DNA from: Mermis nigrescens
Taxonomy: Eukaryota; Nematoda; Enoplea; Mermithida; Mermithidae
Reading direction: 5' to 3'
Length of the DNA stretch: 64,000 nucleotides
Assembly (NCBI GenBank): GCA_036768485.1
Contig: JAVLUZ010000641.1
Span: forward strand, 124,001 to 188,000
The first letter of the stretch is position 1, and each line of letters starts with the position of its first letter. Positions 45,248 through 55,639 of the stretch are shown piece after piece. Made by a program: the position numbers and the translations under genes. The notes under the pieces were generated by a model. That model saw only the letters and a list, made by a program, of their open reading frames with translations, was not told the origin of the DNA and made no database searches.

Positions 45248-45640
45248 TTATTTTGGCGCTAGAAATTCAGTTTTTGTAGCCTGTGATTGCAAATTTGCCA
45301 CGGTACTAGACACACCCGTCATGGCCATAGGAGCCGTGAAACGAGTATCTGGTGCCGTCGTACCTTGTGACACGGGCTGAGTCGTTACTTGCGTGTATAA
45401 TGCTACATGAGGTACTTTGTGTGCGGCTAATGTACGTTGCGGTTGTGGCGGAAAACCGATAATGTCCGTCATGATGACATCTGGGTCAGCCTGCTGCTCT
45501 GCCCCGACCGGCTGAAGAGTCGGCAAAGGTCCGAGTGCACTGATACCCAAGGGAGCTTGTTGAACTGCCGCAAGCGATTGCGAGACAATCGGTTGCGAAA
45601 CGGTAACAATCCTTTTCGAGCCATTGCTCCGCGTGTTACG
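45248..45640 (-). pseudogene. Tail of the exonuclease gene, second part (frame-shifted)
   Basis: This frame is low-complexity and rich in P, Q, T and A (for example GPLPTLQPVGAEQQADPD), like the preceding segment at 46,155-45,620. Both readings are plausible protein through the overlap near 45,600-45,660. I infer a single-base frame break there, near an A/T run at 45,612-45,618. It ends at a stop at 45,248. No domain is recognised. Confidence 0.5.
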
Positions 45641-46155
45641 CGCGGTGGCGACACGTTAGCCTGTGTTTCCGCCTCGGTGTCAGATAACGCCATAACTAAA
45701 CGTTTGGGAGATAAATCATCGTCTTCAGTGGAGATCGATGGTTCTACACCCAGCATAGGCGAATCGTATGGAATATCGGTTTGCGAAGAAAACACAGAAG
45801 CTGGTGTACTCGTACTGGTTGGTTTTGACTTAGGTTCCGTGTCAGGCGCATTTACCGGGCCCGAAACTGTGTCGGCAACGGTTTGCGAAGCCTGCACTTG
45901 TAAGTCAGGATTGTCAAACACGTTAGCGTGAGCCAACGCTTCCGTTACTGAGGCAATGGTGGTGGCTGCCGCTATAGCTACTTGTTGTTGCGGAGCCGGG
46001 CAATAAAAATCCTCAGCTAAGATTAACTCTTCGCCATTTGAATCAACTTCAGCTTCAACAGCTGCGCTGGTCGACTGCCCTTGTGGTGGCTTGCTAGATC
46101 GACAATGGTATGCGTACTTTGGCTTTCGGACCACTAGCCTTAATGTACAACTCAT
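45469..46155 (-). CDS. Low-complexity tail frame downstream of the exonuclease
   Basis: The frame overlaps the last 62 bases of the exonuclease gene in another frame and runs 228 codons. From residue 21 on it is rich in A, S, T, P and D/E, with PTSTSTPASVFSSQ and STEDDDLSP stretches. It looks like a disordered region and not an enzyme or membrane protein; no signal peptide or transmembrane segment is present. It could be a separate gene or the original C-terminal extension of the exonuclease, put out of frame. The last 40 codons are probably out of frame. Confidence 0.55.
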   Translation of the reverse strand: MSCTLRLVVRKPKYAYHCRSSKPPQGQSTSAAVEAEVDSNGEELILAEDFYCPAPQQQVAIAAATTIASVTEALAHANVFDNPDLQVQASQTVADTVSGPVNAPDTEPKSKPTSTSTPASVFSSQTDIPYDSPMLGVEPSISTEDDDLSPKRLVMALSDTEAETQANVSPPRVTRGAMARKGLLPFRNRLSRNRLRQFNKLPWVSVHSDLCRLFSRSGQSSRLTQMSS

Positions 46156-47239
46156 CGCCTACGAAAGAAACCGACATGGGCTTTCTATCGTCAGTAATGC
46201 GATTATCCTGCGAGCACCCTTCTATCAATATGAAAACATCGATAGTTATGAGGGCGTCCATCGCTAGATAATGCTGCATGTCCCGAGTTAAGGGTAAACT
46301 CCACGCCTGTCCGAAGTTTCCAGGCGCGTTCGGATCAATATACATGTCGAAAAAGAATTCTGCCAAGCGCTTTAACGAATGCGATTGCGCTTTAATGCGT
46401 AAACGACGAGTAAATGTTCTCGCCAACGGCTGAATGTCGATGAAATTTGCAATAAATGGGTCTTTCCAGTGCAGTTTATTGCGAATTTCTGCATCCGGAA
46501 TTGCAACAATTTCCTCGAATGTTGGCCCGTAGACATGGAAATACGCAAGTCGATCTTGCGTCGGGTCATAACACACCATATACACGTTAGGTAAGCGTGT
46601 TTCGAGCAACTGGTGAAGCCCGAACGGAGGTTGCGGAAACTTCGCTAGATCCCAACAGAACACATGGCCAGTCGCGCTCGCAACTTGGACGTAGCGTACG
46701 AATGGGCCATGGAGGTCCTGGTAAGTGGGACATAGTTGCTGAAAACGCAGGTCCCAGGTCTTATAATGCCTGCCCTTTCTGTCATTCACAAATTCAGAGT
46801 CGTAGCCTAAAAATAAAGTGCCATTAGTCATATTCGATGGCTGAATTAACGCCAAAATGGCGCCAAACGACGTCTGGTCGTCGGAGACTAAGACGGTGGG
46901 TAAAAGCCTATTCTTTGGTACGCGAGGGGTTACCAAAGGACTTCTACCAAGCCGATTCTCCCACCAGAGTTGTTGATCATTTATGCGCTTTCTGTGATTT
47001 GCGATTTTATGTGTTGCTTTATGCTTTACCCATTTTGCGGTAAGTGATTCGAGACCGCCAACACGGCGATTATCGTGTTGCGGCAGCGGGTTGGGTACGA
47101 CCAATCCCCGCTCTAAAGCCATACTGGTCAACGCCGAACGAAACTCATCTAGGGACGCGGGAACACGTCCCTCGAATTTGCATCGGCGACCAGCTGCTTC
47201 CAACAATGCCTCCTTGCTGGGGGTACCTTGTGCAGCCAT
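46094..47239 (-). CDS. DEDDy-type 3'-5' exonuclease (WRN/RNase D-like) encoded by the retrotransposon
   Basis: The 381-residue frame is intact. Motif I is LGYDSEF (D147, E149). The next strand VRYVQVASATGHVFCWDL parallels the ...LIQLA....LFD element of the family. Motif II lies at VCYDPTQDRL (D225 or D229). The helix HSLKRLAEFFF (residues 287-297) and WSLPLTRDMQHYLAMDAL (motif III, Y324 and D328) match WS..PLT..Q..YAA.DA of WRN and RNase D. All catalytic carboxylates and the tyrosine are present, so it could remove nucleotides from 3' ends with two metal ions. Residues 1-130 are not recognised. It overlaps pol by 91 bp in the -1 frame and occupies the env position. The region looks GC-richer than pol, which suggests capture. 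No search was run. Confidence 0.82.
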   Translation of the reverse strand: MAAQGTPSKEALLEAAGRRCKFEGRVPASLDEFRSALTSMALERGLVVPNPLPQHDNRRVGGLESLTAKWVKHKATHKIANHRKRINDQQLWWENRLGRSPLVTPRVPKNRLLPTVLVSDDQTSFGAILALIQPSNMTNGTLFLGYDSEFVNDRKGRHYKTWDLRFQQLCPTYQDLHGPFVRYVQVASATGHVFCWDLAKFPQPPFGLHQLLETRLPNVYMVCYDPTQDRLAYFHVYGPTFEEIVAIPDAEIRNKLHWKDPFIANFIDIQPLARTFTRRLRIKAQSHSLKRLAEFFFDMYIDPNAPGNFGQAWSLPLTRDMQHYLAMDALITIDVFILIEGCSQDNRITDDRKPMSVSFVGDELYIKASGPKAKVRIPLSI

Positions 47240-50200
47240 GGGTCTGCAAAAGGAAAAACATTAGATAATGGTACGGCATGTGCTGTTTTAGAACCATTTA
47301 ATAAACGTACAGGCGCGCAGTCCTTAGCTTTTTGTTCCCTGCCCGGTAAATCCTCAAAACTTATGACAACTGCCGGGGCAAGAGGGCGATGTGGTAACTT
47401 TACCAACACAAAATCGCCAGGGACATACGCGTGTTTTTCCACAATTAAGTCAGAATAAGGTAGTTTAGGTTCAGGCAAAAGTCTATTCCTGTGAACGTGA
47501 TGAATAATGAGAGGGTTATAGACATATGCGATTTTCGCAGTTTCAGGCGTAGGTAAGTCAATAATCCGGTAGGGACCAACACGCTTGGGTGATAGTTTAC
47601 CGATTTCAGGTTGAATGACTGAAGTATTATTGAGGTAGACTATATCCGAGAGATTAAAATTTGTGTGCGTTACGGCTTTGTCATATTGCGATTTTTGCTG
47701 CTTACGCGCTTGAGATAAATTTTGAGACGCGATTTCATGCAGATCCTGCAAAGTCAGCTTTAAATCAATGACGTATTTTTCCGCAACAGATGGTAAATTC
47801 GGATTTATCACGAAGTCATTTATGAGTAAAGTGTCAAGAGGAAATGCTGGTTCGCGACCATAAAGCATTTCAAAAGGAGATATATTAGTTGATGATTGTG
47901 GAGTCGCGCGGTATGCAAATAATGCGAAGGGTAAAAATTGTTCCCAATCATACTGTGATCGCGCACTCAGCTTAGACAAACCATCAATCAATGTACGATT
48001 ATAACGTTCCACCAACCCATCACACTGGGGGTGATATGGGGTTGTAAATATTTTTTGAACGTTTAATAGTTTACAAACTTCCGAAATTAGGGTAGATGTA
48101 AAATTTGACCCCTGATCTGTCAAAAATTTCTTGGGGACTCCATAACGTGGTATAATTTCTCTTAGTAATAGATTTGCAATAGTTGTTGCTTTTATATCAG
48201 AAACAGCAAAAGCTTCCACGTATTTTGTAAAATAATCCATAAAAACTACAATTTGGTCATTTCCGGAGGGAGATCGCGGCATATGCAAACAATCGCACGC
48301 AATGAGTTCAAAGGGCGCGGATACTTCGATTGGTTGCAACGGAACGGATGTGGAATTTAATGCGACCTTACGTTGTAAGCACACATCACAATTCCTACAC
48401 CACGCGATTACATCATTTTCCATACGCGGCCACCAATAACGCATTTGTATGGCGGGCAAGATTTTGCGCGATGAAAAATGAGCTCCGAAAATAGAGTCAT
48501 GAAATTCCGTTAATATGAAGCGACGCAAAGATTTGGGTATGACGATTTGATGAACGACAGTTGGTGAACGCTTAGGTTGAAAACGACGAAAAAGTACATC
48601 GTTTACGAGAAAAAATTCGTCACGATATTTTTTCGTTGTTAAGTCATTCAATGCGATACGAATTTTATGCAATTCGTCATCTGCACGTTGCTCAGCGAGT
48701 AAACGCGCAGGTGTTAGCATTTCAGCTTTTTCTGCATCGGTAAGTAACAAGCGTTCGCGAAATGTAGGTGGTTTAGAATTAATAGGATCGGTTTGCGCAG
48801 TAGGATTATTATTTTGTGCGTTTGGATGATTAATTGGCGCAGTAGGGGTATTATCGCACGATCGTTCAGGTGGAACCGATTCGTCATCTGACTCAGAATC
48901 TTCGGATTCTAAATTTGCGATGTTAACGATATTTTTGCGCTCTACTTTATATTTGCGTTCTGCATGATCATATTTAGGATGACGTGAAAGAAGATCAGCT
49001 GCGCAGTTATATGCACCAGGAACGTAAACGATATCATATTCGTATTCCTGTAATTTGAGACCCCAACGGCGTAATCGACTCGATGGGTCTTTAACATTTA
49101 CTAGCCAGGTTAACGCTTGATGATCCGTTTCGACAATGAATTTTTTACCGTAAAGATAATGTCGATAATGCTTGATGGCCCACACTACCGCTAGCGCTTC
49201 TTTTTCTGAAGTAGCATAATTACATTCAGCAGAATTTAGCACGCGACTAGCGTAGCTAAGAATAAAACGACTTTTGGATGGTAAATGCTTTTGCGTCAAA
49301 ATAGCACCTAACGCATAGTTACTTGCGTCAGTTGTTAAAATAAATTGGTGCTCATGATCGAATTTTGGTAATTGCAAAATAGGTGGAGATGTAAATGCTT
49401 TCTTCAGAAGCTCAAAAGCGGTTTGGTGCTCAGCCTTCCAGCAAAATTCGACATCTTTACGTAGAAGATGGAATAGCGGTTTAGCGATTTTAGCGAGATC
49501 TTTAACGAATTTCTTAAACCATTGGACTAAGCCAAGAAATTTCTGCACGGATTTAACGGTTTTTGGTACGGGAAACGAGATTAAATCTGCGACTTTAGAC
49601 ATATCGGGAGCGATGCCCATTGCACTGATGCTGTGGCCAAGAAATTTTACCTCTGCATGCGCGAGATGGCATTTATCAGGCTTGACACGTAAGTTTGCCT
49701 TTTTAAGAGCAATGAAGACATTTTCGAGATCTTTTAAATGTTCTTCGAAAGTACGTGAAAAAATAATTATGTCATCGATGTAAACGAGACAAGATTTCCA
49801 ATTTAGACCTGCGAGCACAAGCTCCATTAGTCTTTGAAAATCTGCGGGCGCATTCTTTAAACCAAAAGGTAAAACTTCAAATTCGTAATGACCAACAGGA
49901 CATATAAATGCTGTTTTTTCGCGAGATTTATTATCGAGTGGAATTTGCCAATATCCAGATTTCAAATCTAGTGTGCTAAAATATGCAGCACTGCCTAAAG
50001 TATCAAAATAATCGTCTAATTGTGGAAGAGGGTAAACTTGCGTTTTAGTAACGTCATTTAACCGTCGATAATCGACGACTGGCCTAAGGGAACCGTCCTT
50101 TTTCCCAATGAGAAATAATGGACTTGCCCATGGGCTAGTTGTAGGTCGAATAATTTTATCCGCAAGCATTTCATTTATAATTTTCTGCATAGATTCTCTT

Positions 50201-52395
50201 CTAGAATGCTCAACACGGTAAGTTTTTCCAACAACGGGTGGATTATCCCCTGTGTCAATATGATGTTTCATCAAGGGGGTACGACCGAGAGGTTCATTTT
50301 TTAATGCAAAAATTGAGTCGTATTTTAAGCAAAGTTCACGAATTTGTTGCTGCTGTCTAGAATTAACGGCGGAGCCGTTTAAAGCTTTGTTTATTGATGC
50401 AAAAAGTTCTGGTGTCCTATCATCAAAGGATGAAACATGTGACACGACTTTGGCATCAGTGGTTAAAGAACCTATTATTTCACCAGAGTCAATGCGAATT
50501 GGTGCTTTAGAGATGTTACAGACGCGAACAGGTATTAGAGGTTGTGATGCATCGACTATAGACGGAGCAACAAAAAGTGAAGTTTTTTCCATAAAATCGG
50601 GATTTGGTTCGAATAATGCGAAATCAAAATTGCAAGAACCGTGACTTATGTAGCCAGGTGTAATTAATTCATGCCTAGGTTGTATGATAACAGGCTCAGG
50701 TAACGAAACATGCACACACACAACACCAGAGGTAGTTGCGTTGGGTTTCGCGCGAAATTGCAATTTTTCGTGAGATGAAAGTAAATTAATCTTTATGCCG
50801 TTTATAAAAGCACAACGCTCAATAGGATTAACCCACATGAGTGCGGATTCGCAAAAATCATATCCTAAGAGCATGTCTTCCGGCAAGTGATCAATTATAG
50901 CTACTGAGGTAGAAATAGATTGTTCCGCGATTGTTAAAGTCATATTTACTTTATAGCAAACGACTGCGGTAATTTCGCCTACACCATGCACGACTTGTGA
51001 AACTTGCTTAGGTGGTAAATTAAAACCAAGACGTAAGAATGCTGATGTGGTCATCATGGTGACCTGTGAACCTGTGTCTATCAGAGCAGGTACGTCAACG
51101 CCATGAACTTTAACGAGAATAGTGGGTAAATTTGTCCCAGCATGACTTACGATAGGAATATTAGGATCGAAAATCTTAGATGGAGGTAGATTAATTTTTT
51201 CGTAAGTTGCAAGACGACGTTGTAGACGTTCGTACTCTTCAAGAAATTCTTGCGACGCGAAGAAATTAGGACGCGCGCTAGATTCTTGGTCTTTCGCAGT
51301 AACTGTGTTCACATCACGAGGAGATGTAAGGGTTGGCTGCGGTGGGGGCACATTTATGGCGGGTTGGTTATCTGCAGTGTATGTGACATACGGGCGATTG
51401 AAATTATTATCGCTGCGATAACTAGAGTTATAGTATGTGCCACGTTGTTCATTAGGAAATTGCACAAAAGGTGTATTTTGGCGCGATTGGTTATTATAAC
51501 GATTATCGTAACGCAAATTTTGATAATTAGCACGCGAATTTTGGTAATGATCATTACGATTTTGCCAAAAATTCGATCGTGATTGCTTTGCTTCAAAGCG
51601 ATTATCATTATTCGCATAGTTAGATGAACGATGTTGACTAGAATTACGATATCGTGATTGAGATCGATGCCTATTCTGCGAATTCGAACGCGATGGCGAA
51701 CGATTTCGTCGCGAAAAAGAACGCGATTGGCTGCGATTGCGCACCATAGAATTAGTATTCCGATCAGCTTGATTATTAAAATTAGCATTATTAGACGTTT
51801 CTTGCCTTTGACGCGTGAAGCATTCCTCATAAATGTGACCTATGCGCTTGCAAAAGGTACAATATTTACGAGAAGAATTTTCTGGTTTCTCAGCACGCGA
51901 TGAGCGATGAAACGTTCGATGACGTGAACGATTTGGATCATTTTGGTTAGATGCGCGAGGAGTATCTTTAGGTACTACGCTGCCTACTGGAGCAGCTGTT
52001 ACCGATACGTAAGGCGTTACTGCCTTTTTATCCTCAAATTCTTTATTAGCAAATTCAGCGCTAAGCGCATTGTCCAAAAATTCAGCTAATGATGCCCTAG
52101 GTTTTTTATGATATGCCTCTTTCGAAATGTGTGGTAATAAACCTTGTTTTAGTTGATGTCGCATTAAATTATTGAAATGTGGCGAGTCAACTTCAAGATA
52201 GGGATCCGATTTAATTAACTCTTCGCGAAGCGAGAGATAATAAGCTTTAACCGATTCGTTAGGCTGCTGTTTGTGTGACAAAAAACGATTAAAGAGCGCA
52301 CCGGTGTCCATAGGACAAAATTCGGTTATTAGCGCATGTTTCATTTTCGAATAAGATTGTTGTATATCAGCAGGTAACGAATGGTATAGACGCAA
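47149..52395 (-). CDS. pol: Gag C-terminus plus Pol polyprotein (capsid part, zinc knuckle, PR, RT, RNase H, integrase)
   Basis: The 1748-codon frame is unbroken. The frame opens within the capsid-like retrotransposon Gag domain (continuing upstream to about 52,520). Residues 179-192 form a CX2CX4HX4C zinc knuckle. Residues 215-260 are rich in RS/SR pairs. The protease has LIDTGSQV (D440). RT shows LPFGLKNAP and YIDD (872-875). RNase H has TTDAS (D1023), E1066 and D1091. Integrase has an HHCC finger (1299-1339) and D1368, D1427, E1463 with DD35E spacing. GPY/F follows (VGPYRI, 1607). Residues 1656-1718 (PGDFVLVKL...PAVV...VRLLNG...VFPF) look like a PWWP/Tudor-type barrel. The acting site would be cytoplasmic particles and then chromatin. 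Confidence 0.92.
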   Translation of the reverse strand: MRLYHSLPADIQQSYSKMKHALITEFCPMDTGALFNRFLSHKQQPNESVKAYYLSLREELIKSDPYLEVDSPHFNNLMRHQLKQGLLPHISKEAYHKKPRASLAEFLDNALSAEFANKEFEDKKAVTPYVSVTAAPVGSVVPKDTPRASNQNDPNRSRHRTFHRSSRAEKPENSSRKYCTFCKRIGHIYEECFTRQRQETSNNANFNNQADRNTNSMVRNRSQSRSFSRRNRSPSRSNSQNRHRSQSRYRNSSQHRSSNYANNDNRFEAKQSRSNFWQNRNDHYQNSRANYQNLRYDNRYNNQSRQNTPFVQFPNEQRGTYYNSSYRSDNNFNRPYVTYTADNQPAINVPPPQPTLTSPRDVNTVTAKDQESSARPNFFASQEFLEEYERLQRRLATYEKINLPPSKIFDPNIPIVSHAGTNLPTILVKVHGVDVPALIDTGSQVTMMTTSAFLRLGFNLPPKQVSQVVHGVGEITAVVCYKVNMTLTIAEQSISTSVAIIDHLPEDMLLGYDFCESALMWVNPIERCAFINGIKINLLSSHEKLQFRAKPNATTSGVVCVHVSLPEPVIIQPRHELITPGYISHGSCNFDFALFEPNPDFMEKTSLFVAPSIVDASQPLIPVRVCNISKAPIRIDSGEIIGSLTTDAKVVSHVSSFDDRTPELFASINKALNGSAVNSRQQQQIRELCLKYDSIFALKNEPLGRTPLMKHHIDTGDNPPVVGKTYRVEHSRRESMQKIINEMLADKIIRPTTSPWASPLFLIGKKDGSLRPVVDYRRLNDVTKTQVYPLPQLDDYFDTLGSAAYFSTLDLKSGYWQIPLDNKSREKTAFICPVGHYEFEVLPFGLKNAPADFQRLMELVLAGLNWKSCLVYIDDIIIFSRTFEEHLKDLENVFIALKKANLRVKPDKCHLAHAEVKFLGHSISAMGIAPDMSKVADLISFPVPKTVKSVQKFLGLVQWFKKFVKDLAKIAKPLFHLLRKDVEFCWKAEHQTAFELLKKAFTSPPILQLPKFDHEHQFILTTDASNYALGAILTQKHLPSKSRFILSYASRVLNSAECNYATSEKEALAVVWAIKHYRHYLYGKKFIVETDHQALTWLVNVKDPSSRLRRWGLKLQEYEYDIVYVPGAYNCAADLLSRHPKYDHAERKYKVERKNIVNIANLESEDSESDDESVPPERSCDNTPTAPINHPNAQNNNPTAQTDPINSKPPTFRERLLLTDAEKAEMLTPARLLAEQRADDELHKIRIALNDLTTKKYRDEFFLVNDVLFRRFQPKRSPTVVHQIVIPKSLRRFILTEFHDSIFGAHFSSRKILPAIQMRYWWPRMENDVIAWCRNCDVCLQRKVALNSTSVPLQPIEVSAPFELIACDCLHMPRSPSGNDQIVVFMDYFTKYVEAFAVSDIKATTIANLLLREIIPRYGVPKKFLTDQGSNFTSTLISEVCKLLNVQKIFTTPYHPQCDGLVERYNRTLIDGLSKLSARSQYDWEQFLPFALFAYRATPQSSTNISPFEMLYGREPAFPLDTLLINDFVINPNLPSVAEKYVIDLKLTLQDLHEIASQNLSQARKQQKSQYDKAVTHTNFNLSDIVYLNNTSVIQPEIGKLSPKRVGPYRIIDLPTPETAKIAYVYNPLIIHHVHRNRLLPEPKLPYSDLIVEKHAYVPGDFVLVKLPHRPLAPAVVISFEDLPGREQKAKDCAPVRLLNGSKTAHAVPLSNVFPFADPWLHKVPPARRHCWKQLVADANSRDVFPRP
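47243..47265 (-). promoter_or_regulatory. Predicted 3' splice site for a subgenomic exonuclease mRNA
   Basis: On the minus strand CTAAT, a branch-point-like pentamer, is followed by the pyrimidine run GTTTTTCCTTTTGCAG. The ATG of the exonuclease gene begins 4 nt beyond this AG. The same bases encode the NVFPFAD stretch of the pol product. Gypsy env is known to be made from a spliced RNA with its acceptor at the end of pol; use here is inference. Confidence 0.6.
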
Positions 52396-52570: not shown

Positions 52571-53557
52571 TCAAGGAATCAGCGAGACATGAATCACCAC
52601 GCGAGCTTTCAGATGAAGAACCTGAACTATGCCTATGACGTCGTCTGCGCGATCGAGATTTGCAACGCGAGCGACGATCATGCGCGGGCGATCATAACTA
52701 TTAGATGAGCTGTCGTCAGAAAATTTGACATGTTTTTTCCTACTAGACGATTCAGATTGAGGAGCAGCTTCATTTTGCAAATTTGCAGATTCGTTATTAA
52801 TACCAGATAAATTTATCTCAACCGGTTGCATTTCGATATTAGAAGAATGCAAGATAGGATTATTAGGTGGTATTTCCACGTTTATAGGGTTAGGTACATA
52901 ATTATTGGGTAAGATTTCTCCTTGTGGTGGAAAATACTGCAGCGGTGGTGGATTTAGTTGCTGCTGCAAATTTGCAATAGAAGGAGTAGGTACAAAGGAA
53001 GGCGCATTACGATTTAATGGCAGCAAAGGCCGAGATCGCGACGTCTGCGAAATCGATACCGACGGCTGCGAAATCGTAGGTATATTCTCCGAAAAACCCG
53101 AGTTTTGCACTGATTGCAAACCCGTGTTTACAGGATTCTGTGACAAATTACAGATTTCCGGCGCGCGATTAGTACAACTTTGAGAGATATTTTCTGGAAC
53201 AGTTTCCGAAGGTGAGCGTGAATTCGATGCTCTGTTGCTAGTAGACAACAGTGAAGATGCCCTATGCGTACTTTGCGCACGATTTGCACTTTGCGCATTG
53301 AATTCAGAAAAATTTGCGCTATCGATTGAGTGGTTAACGCGCTCAGATACATTAGTTTCTATGCGATTCAGAACTGGTTGGGGTTTAAGCATAGTGCTTA
53401 GCTCCAAACGCAGTTTACGCATTTCATCCACATTTTCCTTTTTATCTTGATCAACGCGCGTAGAAAGATCCGAAAATTGCAAATGAATAGCTTGTAGCGC
53501 TTTCAAAATAAGATCATTAGTCACATTAGCATTAGCAAGCTCTCTGTCGGCATTCAT
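52571..53557 (-). CDS. gag: Gag N-terminal region, low complexity, with an RS-like patch
   Basis: After a coiled-coil-like start (NDLILKALQAIHLQFSDLST) the 328-codon frame is dominated by S, N, P, Q and I without a known fold. It contains SSSRKKHVKFSDDSSSNSYD. From about 52,690 an alternative frame is richer in R, S and H and leads smoothly into the capsid domain, so I infer a single-base frame break near 52,680-52,700. Another break lies near 52,515-52,530 in an A/T run. The extension in front of the capsid domain is unusually long for a Ty3/gypsy Gag. Confidence 0.65.
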   Translation of the reverse strand: MNADRELANANVTNDLILKALQAIHLQFSDLSTRVDQDKKENVDEMRKLRLELSTMLKPQPVLNRIETNVSERVNHSIDSANFSEFNAQSANRAQSTHRASSLLSTSNRASNSRSPSETVPENISQSCTNRAPEICNLSQNPVNTGLQSVQNSGFSENIPTISQPSVSISQTSRSRPLLPLNRNAPSFVPTPSIANLQQQLNPPPLQYFPPQGEILPNNYVPNPINVEIPPNNPILHSSNIEMQPVEINLSGINNESANLQNEAAPQSESSSRKKHVKFSDDSSSNSYDRPRMIVARVANLDRADDVIGIVQVLHLKARVVIHVSLIP

Positions 53558-53981: not shown

Positions 53982-54640
53982 AAATGTCGAGAAATGTGCC
54001 TTTGGGTAAAATAAATTTCAGTACGTCGGAATTTTTCCCAAAATAAATGTTTCGAATTAGACCTTTGTCGATCCGAAAAACAGGTTTTTCCACGTAAATA
54101 GTACTTCCTTACGTGAAGTAAGATATACCTGACGTGAAATGATCGAAAGCAGATAGGACTAAGCCTAAAGCGCAAGAACGTGTATGTGGTGATAAAAACA
54201 GGTATGTAAAAACCTAAATGACGGAAATTCGTCGTCAGTTGAGAAAAATGATAAATCGTCGCCTGAGGGCTGACGTTTATAGAAAAATAAATATACGAGC
54301 GTGAAAGCTGCCTTCGTCGGTAGGGATCCGACGGAAATAGAAAAATAACGATGGCTTTACCACGATACACAAAATCTTTACCACGGATGCTTACTTAAAT
54401 TGCGCACTGCCACAATCGCGGTCGATACCACAACAAAGGTGAACGAAACGTTACACATTTTTAGATGAACAAAATGATAATTTTTGGATCGAAAAATAAT
54501 TTTACGATGATTGATCAGTTCGGCTGTAGCTAGCAGCCTAAAGGAGGGAACATCCAATGTAAATGCGTAGGACCGTCCAATGTAAATGTACAGAGCCGCC
54601 TTATGTCTACAAAGAATCAACATAGGACGGGTACATTTGC
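53982..54640 (-). other. Untranslated leader of the retrotransposon
   Basis: No long frame of biological character is seen. On the minus strand CACGTCAG/GTATAT near 54,131-54,137 is a good candidate splice donor for the exonuclease RNA. No primer-binding site complementary to a common tRNA 3' end could be recognised with confidence. Confidence 0.4.
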
Positions 54641-54865
54641 CTTCGAAATTTACCTAGGTACGTAGGTACTTAAGTCTACGCTTAGTGCTGGCCCCGATCG
54701 CGCGGCTCTAAGGCTTTCGATCTTTGGACCCTTACAGACCTTACGGCTTCGATCCCCTCAGCCCTAATATTGCTGGCTGCTTCTATGTCGGGTGATCTCA
54801 GCAGCTACGCCCTAAGACCTAAGGCTACCTACCTAGTCTCGGTAATTGCCGCGGAGGTCAGTTGA

Positions 54866-55015
54866 CCTATCTCAAGCTCAAGTTGTAATTTAACTTATTT
54901 TCAATCAGTGCCTGATCAGAAATGTTTTGGTTCCTAATTTGTGTAGCACGCTGAACTATGAAAACAACAACGACGAGCTCTATGCTGATCAATCATCCTT
55001 AAAGATTAGATAATA
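54866..55015. repeat. Dispersed repeat, second copy of 1-190
   Basis: It is the inverse of the window start (see 1-190). It lies upstream of the retrotransposon leader and could be part of an LTR, but no second copy exists on the other side of the coding region. Flanking 54,641-54,865 and 55,016-55,640 hold nothing that I recognise. Confidence 0.55.
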
Positions 55016-55639
55016 ATTTTGATCAATTTTTGGCTTGAGAAATAAATTATGATTTTCGAATAGAAAATGCTATCATACGGAATTTACCTATCAGTCCACT
55101 AGATGGGTGGAGATCCTCGACGTGGGAAAGATGGCCGACCTAACCCTCGGTATAACCGAAACCACTGGGTTGGTTTTCTATGATTTTATTTGACGAAGAA
55201 CACACGGCCTATAGCCGGGAAACAAAATACGCAAAAGAAAAATGACAATGTACAGTCGAAAATAACCGGCCAACGAAAAAACCAAACAAGCCAGAAAAAA
55301 CTCATACGACCCTCAGTACACTGGCCTCAAGGGCCATTACAGTAAATTAAAACAACGATCAATTTAACATAATACTGAAATGACTTTTATCTCAGATCGA
55401 AAGTTCTCGATTTACGTAAGCGGTATGCATTAAACAATTACTATTATCATACACTTAGCTCTATGCTACCGGACAAGTATCTAAATGTTTTTTATTATTG
55501 AAAATTTGGGAAAATAATGGGAAGACCGAAGGCATAGCCCACAGTGCACTATCATAGATAGCTACTAGTATTGGCTATGTTATGGCTATTGCGAACTGCT
55601 AAGGCAGGTTCGCCTAAACGTGTAACTCTCGCAGTTACA

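Follow-up and report, generated by a model that had tools for sequence, protein, structure and literature searches.

Exonucleases of the DEDDy type encoded by LTR retrotransposons have been described from bdelloid rotifers, in which Rodriguez, Kenefick and Arkhipova reported in 2017 that LTR retrotransposons, as well as Athena elements, carry DEDDy ORF3s (PMC5408684). In the accessible text of that paper, a role in RNA 3' end processing is suggested for these ORF3s, and the ORF3s of LTR retrotransposons are stated to be typically expressed via spliced messages. A DnaQ-like exonuclease was also counted in 2019 among the known accessory domains of LTR elements, with the bdelloid work among the studies cited (PMC6338049, accessible part). 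For nematodes, no DEDDy or other exonuclease-bearing retrotransposon was found in the literature searched, whose coverage leaves out most subscription papers. In this paper, we have analysed a stretch of 64,000 nucleotides from the mermithid Mermis nigrescens (the window), for which the original prediction had placed an intact DEDDy 3'-5' exonuclease in the env position of a Ty3/gypsy retrotransposon. The novelty implied there is not supported, because DEDDy ORF3s had already been reported in bdelloid LTR retrotransposons, as the accessible text of PMC5408684 documents; the gene itself was followed through the whole genome assembly (523,963,438 bases in 860 contigs).

The exonuclease ORF and the element that carries it

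The retrotransposon is a Ty3/gypsy LTR element with many copies in Mermis nigrescens, and the copy in the window, which has decayed, shows the following features:

54581..55639, minus strand: 5' LTR, TGTAAC...TTTACA, about 1.06 kb, matching the stretch downstream of ORF3 in other copies
52571..53557, minus strand: part of gag, broken in the window copy; a 328-aa ORF judged to be gag by its position
47149..52395, minus strand: pol, with protease, RT, RNase H and integrase by Pfam
47245..47418, minus strand: pol aa 1660-1717 (integrase C-terminus), a degenerate stretch resembling PWWP, PF00855 below cut-off
47244..47258, minus strand: splice-acceptor-like TTTTTCCTTTTGCAG, 4 bases before the ORF3 ATG
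46094..47239, minus strand: N-terminal piece of ORF3, 381 aa, holding a predicted DEDDy exonuclease domain at about residues 91-350
45276..46093, minus strand: continuation of ORF3 (linker) in shifted frames, read against the open frame of copy L031

The Pfam matches of pol are strong (RVT_1 6.9e-36, RT_RNaseH 9.1e-36, Integrase_H2C2 4.6e-19, rve 1.8e-11 and Asp_protease_2 4.4e-11), their order PR-RT-RH-IN is that of Ty3/gypsy, and no dUTPase was reported by Pfam in this pol; tRNA and Rfam searches returned nothing. In other copies, pol forms the end of open frames that reach up to 2275-2281 aa. The 5' LTR of the window is 86-97% identical to the stretch 3' of ORF3 in six other copies, the match being interrupted in L034 by an insertion. 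In the window copy no 3' LTR was matched in place; in L031 the 3' LTR is preceded by the polypurine tract GTGGGGGAG and has TG...CA ends, as read by eye. With a PR-RT-RH-IN pol, LTRs and an ORF3 behind pol, the assignment to a Ty3/gypsy element with an exonuclease gene in the env position stands. As a side observation, two stretches in or after the LTR of L034 (5329-5584 and 7222-7469) match many places in the window between 571 and 34667 at ~76-88%, which is probably a common short repeat.

The ORF at 46094-47239 overlaps the pol ORF (47149-52395) by 91 bp on the same strand in a different frame, and the complete set of DEDDy motifs that had been claimed for it is borne out, with D147, E149, D229, Y324 and D328 aligning as active-site residues. 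In an alignment of 11 rows (the window, one other copy of its family and nine exonuclease ORFs from other families in the same genome), D229, Y324 and D328 are invariant and D147 and E149 nearly so. The profile search proposed earlier gave a divided answer: the window protein alone matches PF01612 at E 0.011 and 16 bits, below the cut-off of 23.6, and sister exonuclease ORFs exceed that cut-off and are linked to the window protein by the profiles of their classes. Profiles from two other exonuclease classes of the genome reach it at E 1.7e-9 and 1.3e-8 (the best E among 300 shuffled sequences was 26), and the 11-row profile, nine rows of which lie outside the window family, matches WRN at 4e-12, and also NrnC, Egalitarian, EXD2 and mut-7 (a mut-7 homologue at E 0.001). 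A phmmer search of the PDB with the window protein gave no credible match, the best being GRB2 at E 0.49. Taken at the level of sequence, it is confirmed that 46094-47239 encodes a predicted DEDDy-type 3'-5' exonuclease domain directly after a Ty3/gypsy pol.

The 381-aa ORF covers just the N-terminal part of ORF3, a gene of about 1,382 aa in other copies; the ORF3 frame measures 1381-1383 aa in all six other copies, which were chosen for long frames. It is laid out as an N-terminal region, the exonuclease (~91-350), a linker in which Ala, Pro, Ser and Thr abound, a middle region and a basic tail rich in Arg and Gln (72 Lys+Arg versus 48 Asp+Glu in 372 aa), which probably binds nucleic acid, to judge from its composition. 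No Pfam family was matched in the linker, the middle region or the tail, and no homology was found between the C-terminal regions of different ORF3 classes. In L031-L036 (6/6 copies) the end of ORF3 is also spanned, in a different frame, by an overlapping open frame of 216-301 codons, probably as a by-product of the repetitive tail. The description of the gene as intact holds for the exonuclease domain itself and fails for the gene of the window, which is frameshifted past the exonuclease and truncated, its likeness to other copies stopping at 45276, inside ORF3. The frameshifts may in part be assembly errors; the assembly was made from long reads with 10X scaffolding and polished with mRNA reads (PMC10989877, accessible part).

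Recurrence of the gene and selection on it

The exonuclease is present in at least 108 copies of 93-100% identity, these being the best 108 of 2685 first-look candidates scored. Among 125 listed copies of pol (98-100% identical), 75 are adjoined by a listed exonuclease. The ORF3 tail was found near at least 12 of the other 50, with 16 of 110 tail places entered, and all 12 copies sampled from the remaining 38 have the exonuclease start and sequence, open over 263 codons in seven and frameshifted or cut short in five. The search for family members without the gene thus turned up the gene in every sampled pol copy that had no listed exonuclease. Within the window family, the five motif residues are kept in all 46 rows (42 distinct places), 45 of which are without a stop.

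These counts bear on the idea that a host exonuclease gene was caught beside a single retrotransposon copy. The genome does contain other, host-like PF01612 genes (at C728 and C147), as that idea would need. Against it, the pol-ORF3 junction is identical in all copies read, ORF3 is followed by an LTR in each of the six copies that were read far enough, and the exonucleases of other element classes outscore the host-like fragments, which are short, when matched against each other. The reading as a host fragment is refuted by the other copies, its probability being practically nil, and the earlier argument that the ORF is not a neighbouring host gene is upheld by a junction common to all copies read and by the recurrence of the gene across the family.

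The exonuclease gene is under purifying selection, with dN/dS of ~0.08-0.18. Pairwise values are ~0.08 at dS 0.1-0.55, 0.13-0.14 at dS 0.01-0.1 and 0.42 at dS below 0.01; the value of 0.62 between the window and L073 rests on one synonymous and two other changes. Higher values among near-identical copies are expected if copies drift after insertion. A wrong-frame control on 29 copies gave 1.5 and 5.0. Since the first copies had been ranked by protein similarity, the calculation was repeated on copies found by pol, where dN/dS is 0.08-0.18 at pS 0.19-0.40 and 0.06-0.17 at pS 0.02-0.10 (eight of 13 rows, gapless over 263 codons, the five gapped or shifted rows being left out). The dN/dS check across copies that had been proposed for the gene thus came out in its favour, at ~0.08 where dS exceeds 0.1 and at 0.08-0.18 in the more divergent pol-found copies. 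By segment, in six copies, the exonuclease is the most conserved part of ORF3 (0.081), followed by the middle region (0.12), the tail (0.13), the N-terminus (0.16), residues 351-420 (0.21) and the linker (0.33). The pol C-terminus has a dN/dS of 0.023 in a protein-guided alignment (22 of 29 copies, with at least 440 open codons). Separately, in 22 of the 29 copies L002-L030, synonymous divergence is 0.053 in the pol C-terminus versus 0.098 in the exonuclease, a halving that could reflect recombination between lineages or added constraint.

Related families and the PWWP ends of their integrases

A PF01612 search of the genome gave 22 places, of which 19 were judged by mutual homology to be element exonuclease ORFs; the remaining three belong to the two host-like loci, C728 and C147, with short exon-like frames. 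A match to the window pol lies directly upstream on the same strand at E<1e-4 in 11 of the 19, a weak one (E 0.06-0.18) in three, and none within the flank examined in five. When 22 exonuclease ORFs were clustered at 80%, leaving out L038 (a broken near-copy of L039), 13 families resulted, with 21-71% identity between them. The upstream pol is directly matched in six families (the window, L049, L046, L052, L039 and L047) and weakly in one (L042); a PWWP-ended open frame takes its place in the families of L085, L086 and L087, and no pol was seen within the flank examined in those of L051, L055 and L057.

All five active-site residues are found in 18 of the 22 rows, with L045, L046, L050 and L055 each lacking one. 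The exonuclease might be a catalytically dead or non-essential passenger that has retained nucleic-acid binding only, which we regard as rather unlikely. It would have company, as the fold includes two inactive members, Maelstrom and EXD1, and intragenomic ORF3 variation in bdelloids is mostly neutral, although the ORFs concerned are env and GDSL and not DEDDy (both in the accessible text of PMC5408684); moreover, two of the 13 families, those of L046/L050 and of L055, have no row that keeps all five residues. These points are set against the low dN/dS of the exonuclease and the retention of the residues in 18 of 22 rows, in 11 of 13 families and in every one of the 46 window-family rows. On its motifs, the ORF3 exonuclease is quite likely to be catalytically active.

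Upstream of the exonuclease, the window pol ends in a degenerate PWWP-like stretch, which matches PF00855 at E 0.039 with the whole pol and 0.0026 with the tail alone (18.6 bits versus a cut-off of 25.6) and lines up with the clear PWWP domains that related pols have. PF00855 is over the cut-off in the sister families L046 and L052 and in the public proteins P0014 and P0015; Pfam finds integrase and PWWP in one frame in L052 and integrase-end domains in L046. Genome-wide, 101 of 150 candidates scored are over the cut-off, the window family not among them, 54 lying in open frames of at least 500 aa and 31 in frames of at least 1000 aa; examples are C44:2690171-2690410, C510:1986206-1986466, L046:3-974 and L052:2-1135. 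When PWWP and frame length were the sole criteria for picking families, all three families so picked proved to be followed by an exonuclease ORF of 490-534 aa, one of these running off the stretch examined.

Chromoviruses are Ty3/gypsy elements with an integrase chromodomain. They and the related elements described here are alike in having a domain of the chromatin-reader type at the integrase C-terminus, which is a chromodomain in the former and PWWP in the latter, clear in sister families and degenerate in the window family. No report of a PWWP integrase was found in the literature searched, which covers few subscription papers. Such ends point to PWWP as a possible second means, next to chromodomains, for retroelements to read host chromatin.

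A quick tree of 36 proteins, based on RT (SH-aLRT only; three elements of the genome, one per class), groups the window with the public proteins P0002 and P0003, in which PWWP is weak and absent, respectively, and the class B element L070 with P0014 and P0015; both groups belong to a single supported group. L069, the class C element, is placed elsewhere, beside P0071 and P0073. These two public proteins are gypsy polyproteins in which a viral fusion glycoprotein of the Monjiviricetes type (PF24664) sits, within one frame, between gag and protease. The exonuclease tree, for which a single distant host-like fragment with a long branch served as root, joins A with B at 71/69 support, whereas profile scores put the B and C exonucleases closer. 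A swap of ORF3 between element clades was considered and rejected, the exonuclease tree grouping A with B as RT does, so that no conflict with the RT tree is shown. Outside the genome, no relatives were found in viral contigs, and a protein collection searched for proteins sharing 5-residue words yielded no relative for either the 381-aa or the 1382-aa query.

Expression, possible function and comparison with known systems

The motif TTTTTCCTTTTGCAG followed by ACCC before the ORF3 ATG is unchanged in 44 of 45 rows (42 distinct copies), the other row differing by one base, and an equally good acceptor occurs within 60 bases at 1.8% of 5000 random window places; since TTTTTCCTTTTGCAG also codes for pol, its conservation is not independent evidence. 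Candidate donor-like sites lie in the leader at 54394, 54112 and 54128. Of seven ORF3 starts scored, two reach 6.5%, namely L039, whose acceptor TTTCCTAG abuts the ATG, and L042. Another four do not surpass 29-57% of random places. No exact match to the nematode SL1 leader was found; TTAGGC, the nematode telomere repeat, has 4846 matches in the genome. We infer that translation of ORF3 in the window family probably proceeds from a spliced subgenomic mRNA, in the manner of retroviral env; splicing of ORF3 in other families is a possibility.

Its position and probable splicing, both as in env, would also suit an env-like entry function with the exonuclease fold reused. Six ORF3s examined by Kyte-Doolittle hydropathy only, in contrast, have no clear signal peptide or membrane segment, with maxima of at most 1.68 in five and of 2.06 in L051, the latter within the exonuclease core, and such a function is very improbable.

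Recurrence in several gypsy families and upkeep by selection imply that the exonuclease does something for the element. The original prediction had put forward 3' trimming of cDNA or RNA, proofreading and a counter to host small-RNA defence as what it may do. The explanation that we favour, with some reserve, is that ORF3 encodes an accessory nuclease which trims the 3' ends of the element's RNA or cDNA. ORF3 would be made from the spliced subgenomic message, the basic tail would hold it on the nucleic acid of the element, and the exonuclease would trim the 3' ends of element RNA or cDNA within the nucleoprotein, which would improve replication or integration. That the substrate is the element's own RNA or cDNA ends is itself a guess, and a somewhat doubtful one.

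The main rival is that the exonuclease is an antidefence protein, with host small RNAs, or the precursors of these, being degraded or trimmed by it to counter RNA silencing. A separate message, probably spliced to judge from the acceptor motif, would fit such a role, as it does for accessory proteins, and so would the kinship by profile with the mut-7 homologue (E 0.001), given that MUT-7 acts in nematode silencing (cited in PMC5408684, accessible part). The clade I nematodes tested, including the mermithid Romanomermis, are reported to lack piRNAs and 22G RNAs and to have an RRF-3-type RdRP (PMC4323106, accessible part); the target would therefore have to be other small RNAs. Overall we consider the antidefence role unlikely, if less so than that of a passenger. 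A broader and tentative idea, for which we see a modest chance, is a whole nematode gypsy clade built on two conserved modules, a PWWP integrase that reads host chromatin for site choice and an active exonuclease ORF3 for replication or anti-silencing, in a worm without piRNAs. Recurring in several nematode gypsy families, an exonuclease in the env position would seem to be no rotifer oddity, and the many near-identical open copies make testable a question left open in 2017.

As far as checked, what is new here is the nematode host, the 1,382-aa ORF3, the number of families, the evidence for selection and the PWWP integrase ends. Compared with WRN, EXD2, MUT-7, Egalitarian and NrnC, the window exonuclease is alike in profile kinship and in the five active-site residues, and it differs in being element-borne, remote in sequence and set among other surrounding regions. 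Juno, Vesta and Athena/Terminon of bdelloids share with the present elements a DEDDy exonuclease as ORF3 behind pol (PMC5408684 and PMC6431247, accessible parts), and there as here the invariant residues are reported intact in more than one element lineage (accessible text of PMC5408684). On the other hand, the bdelloid motif is given in that text as DEED and not DEDD, and the pol of Juno and Vesta is described there as having a dUTPase, with no chromodomain found, whereas here no dUTPase is seen and related pols end in PWWP. Finally, the bdelloid elements live in a rotifer host, and those described here in a nematode, with an ORF3 that reaches ~1,382 aa in one family.
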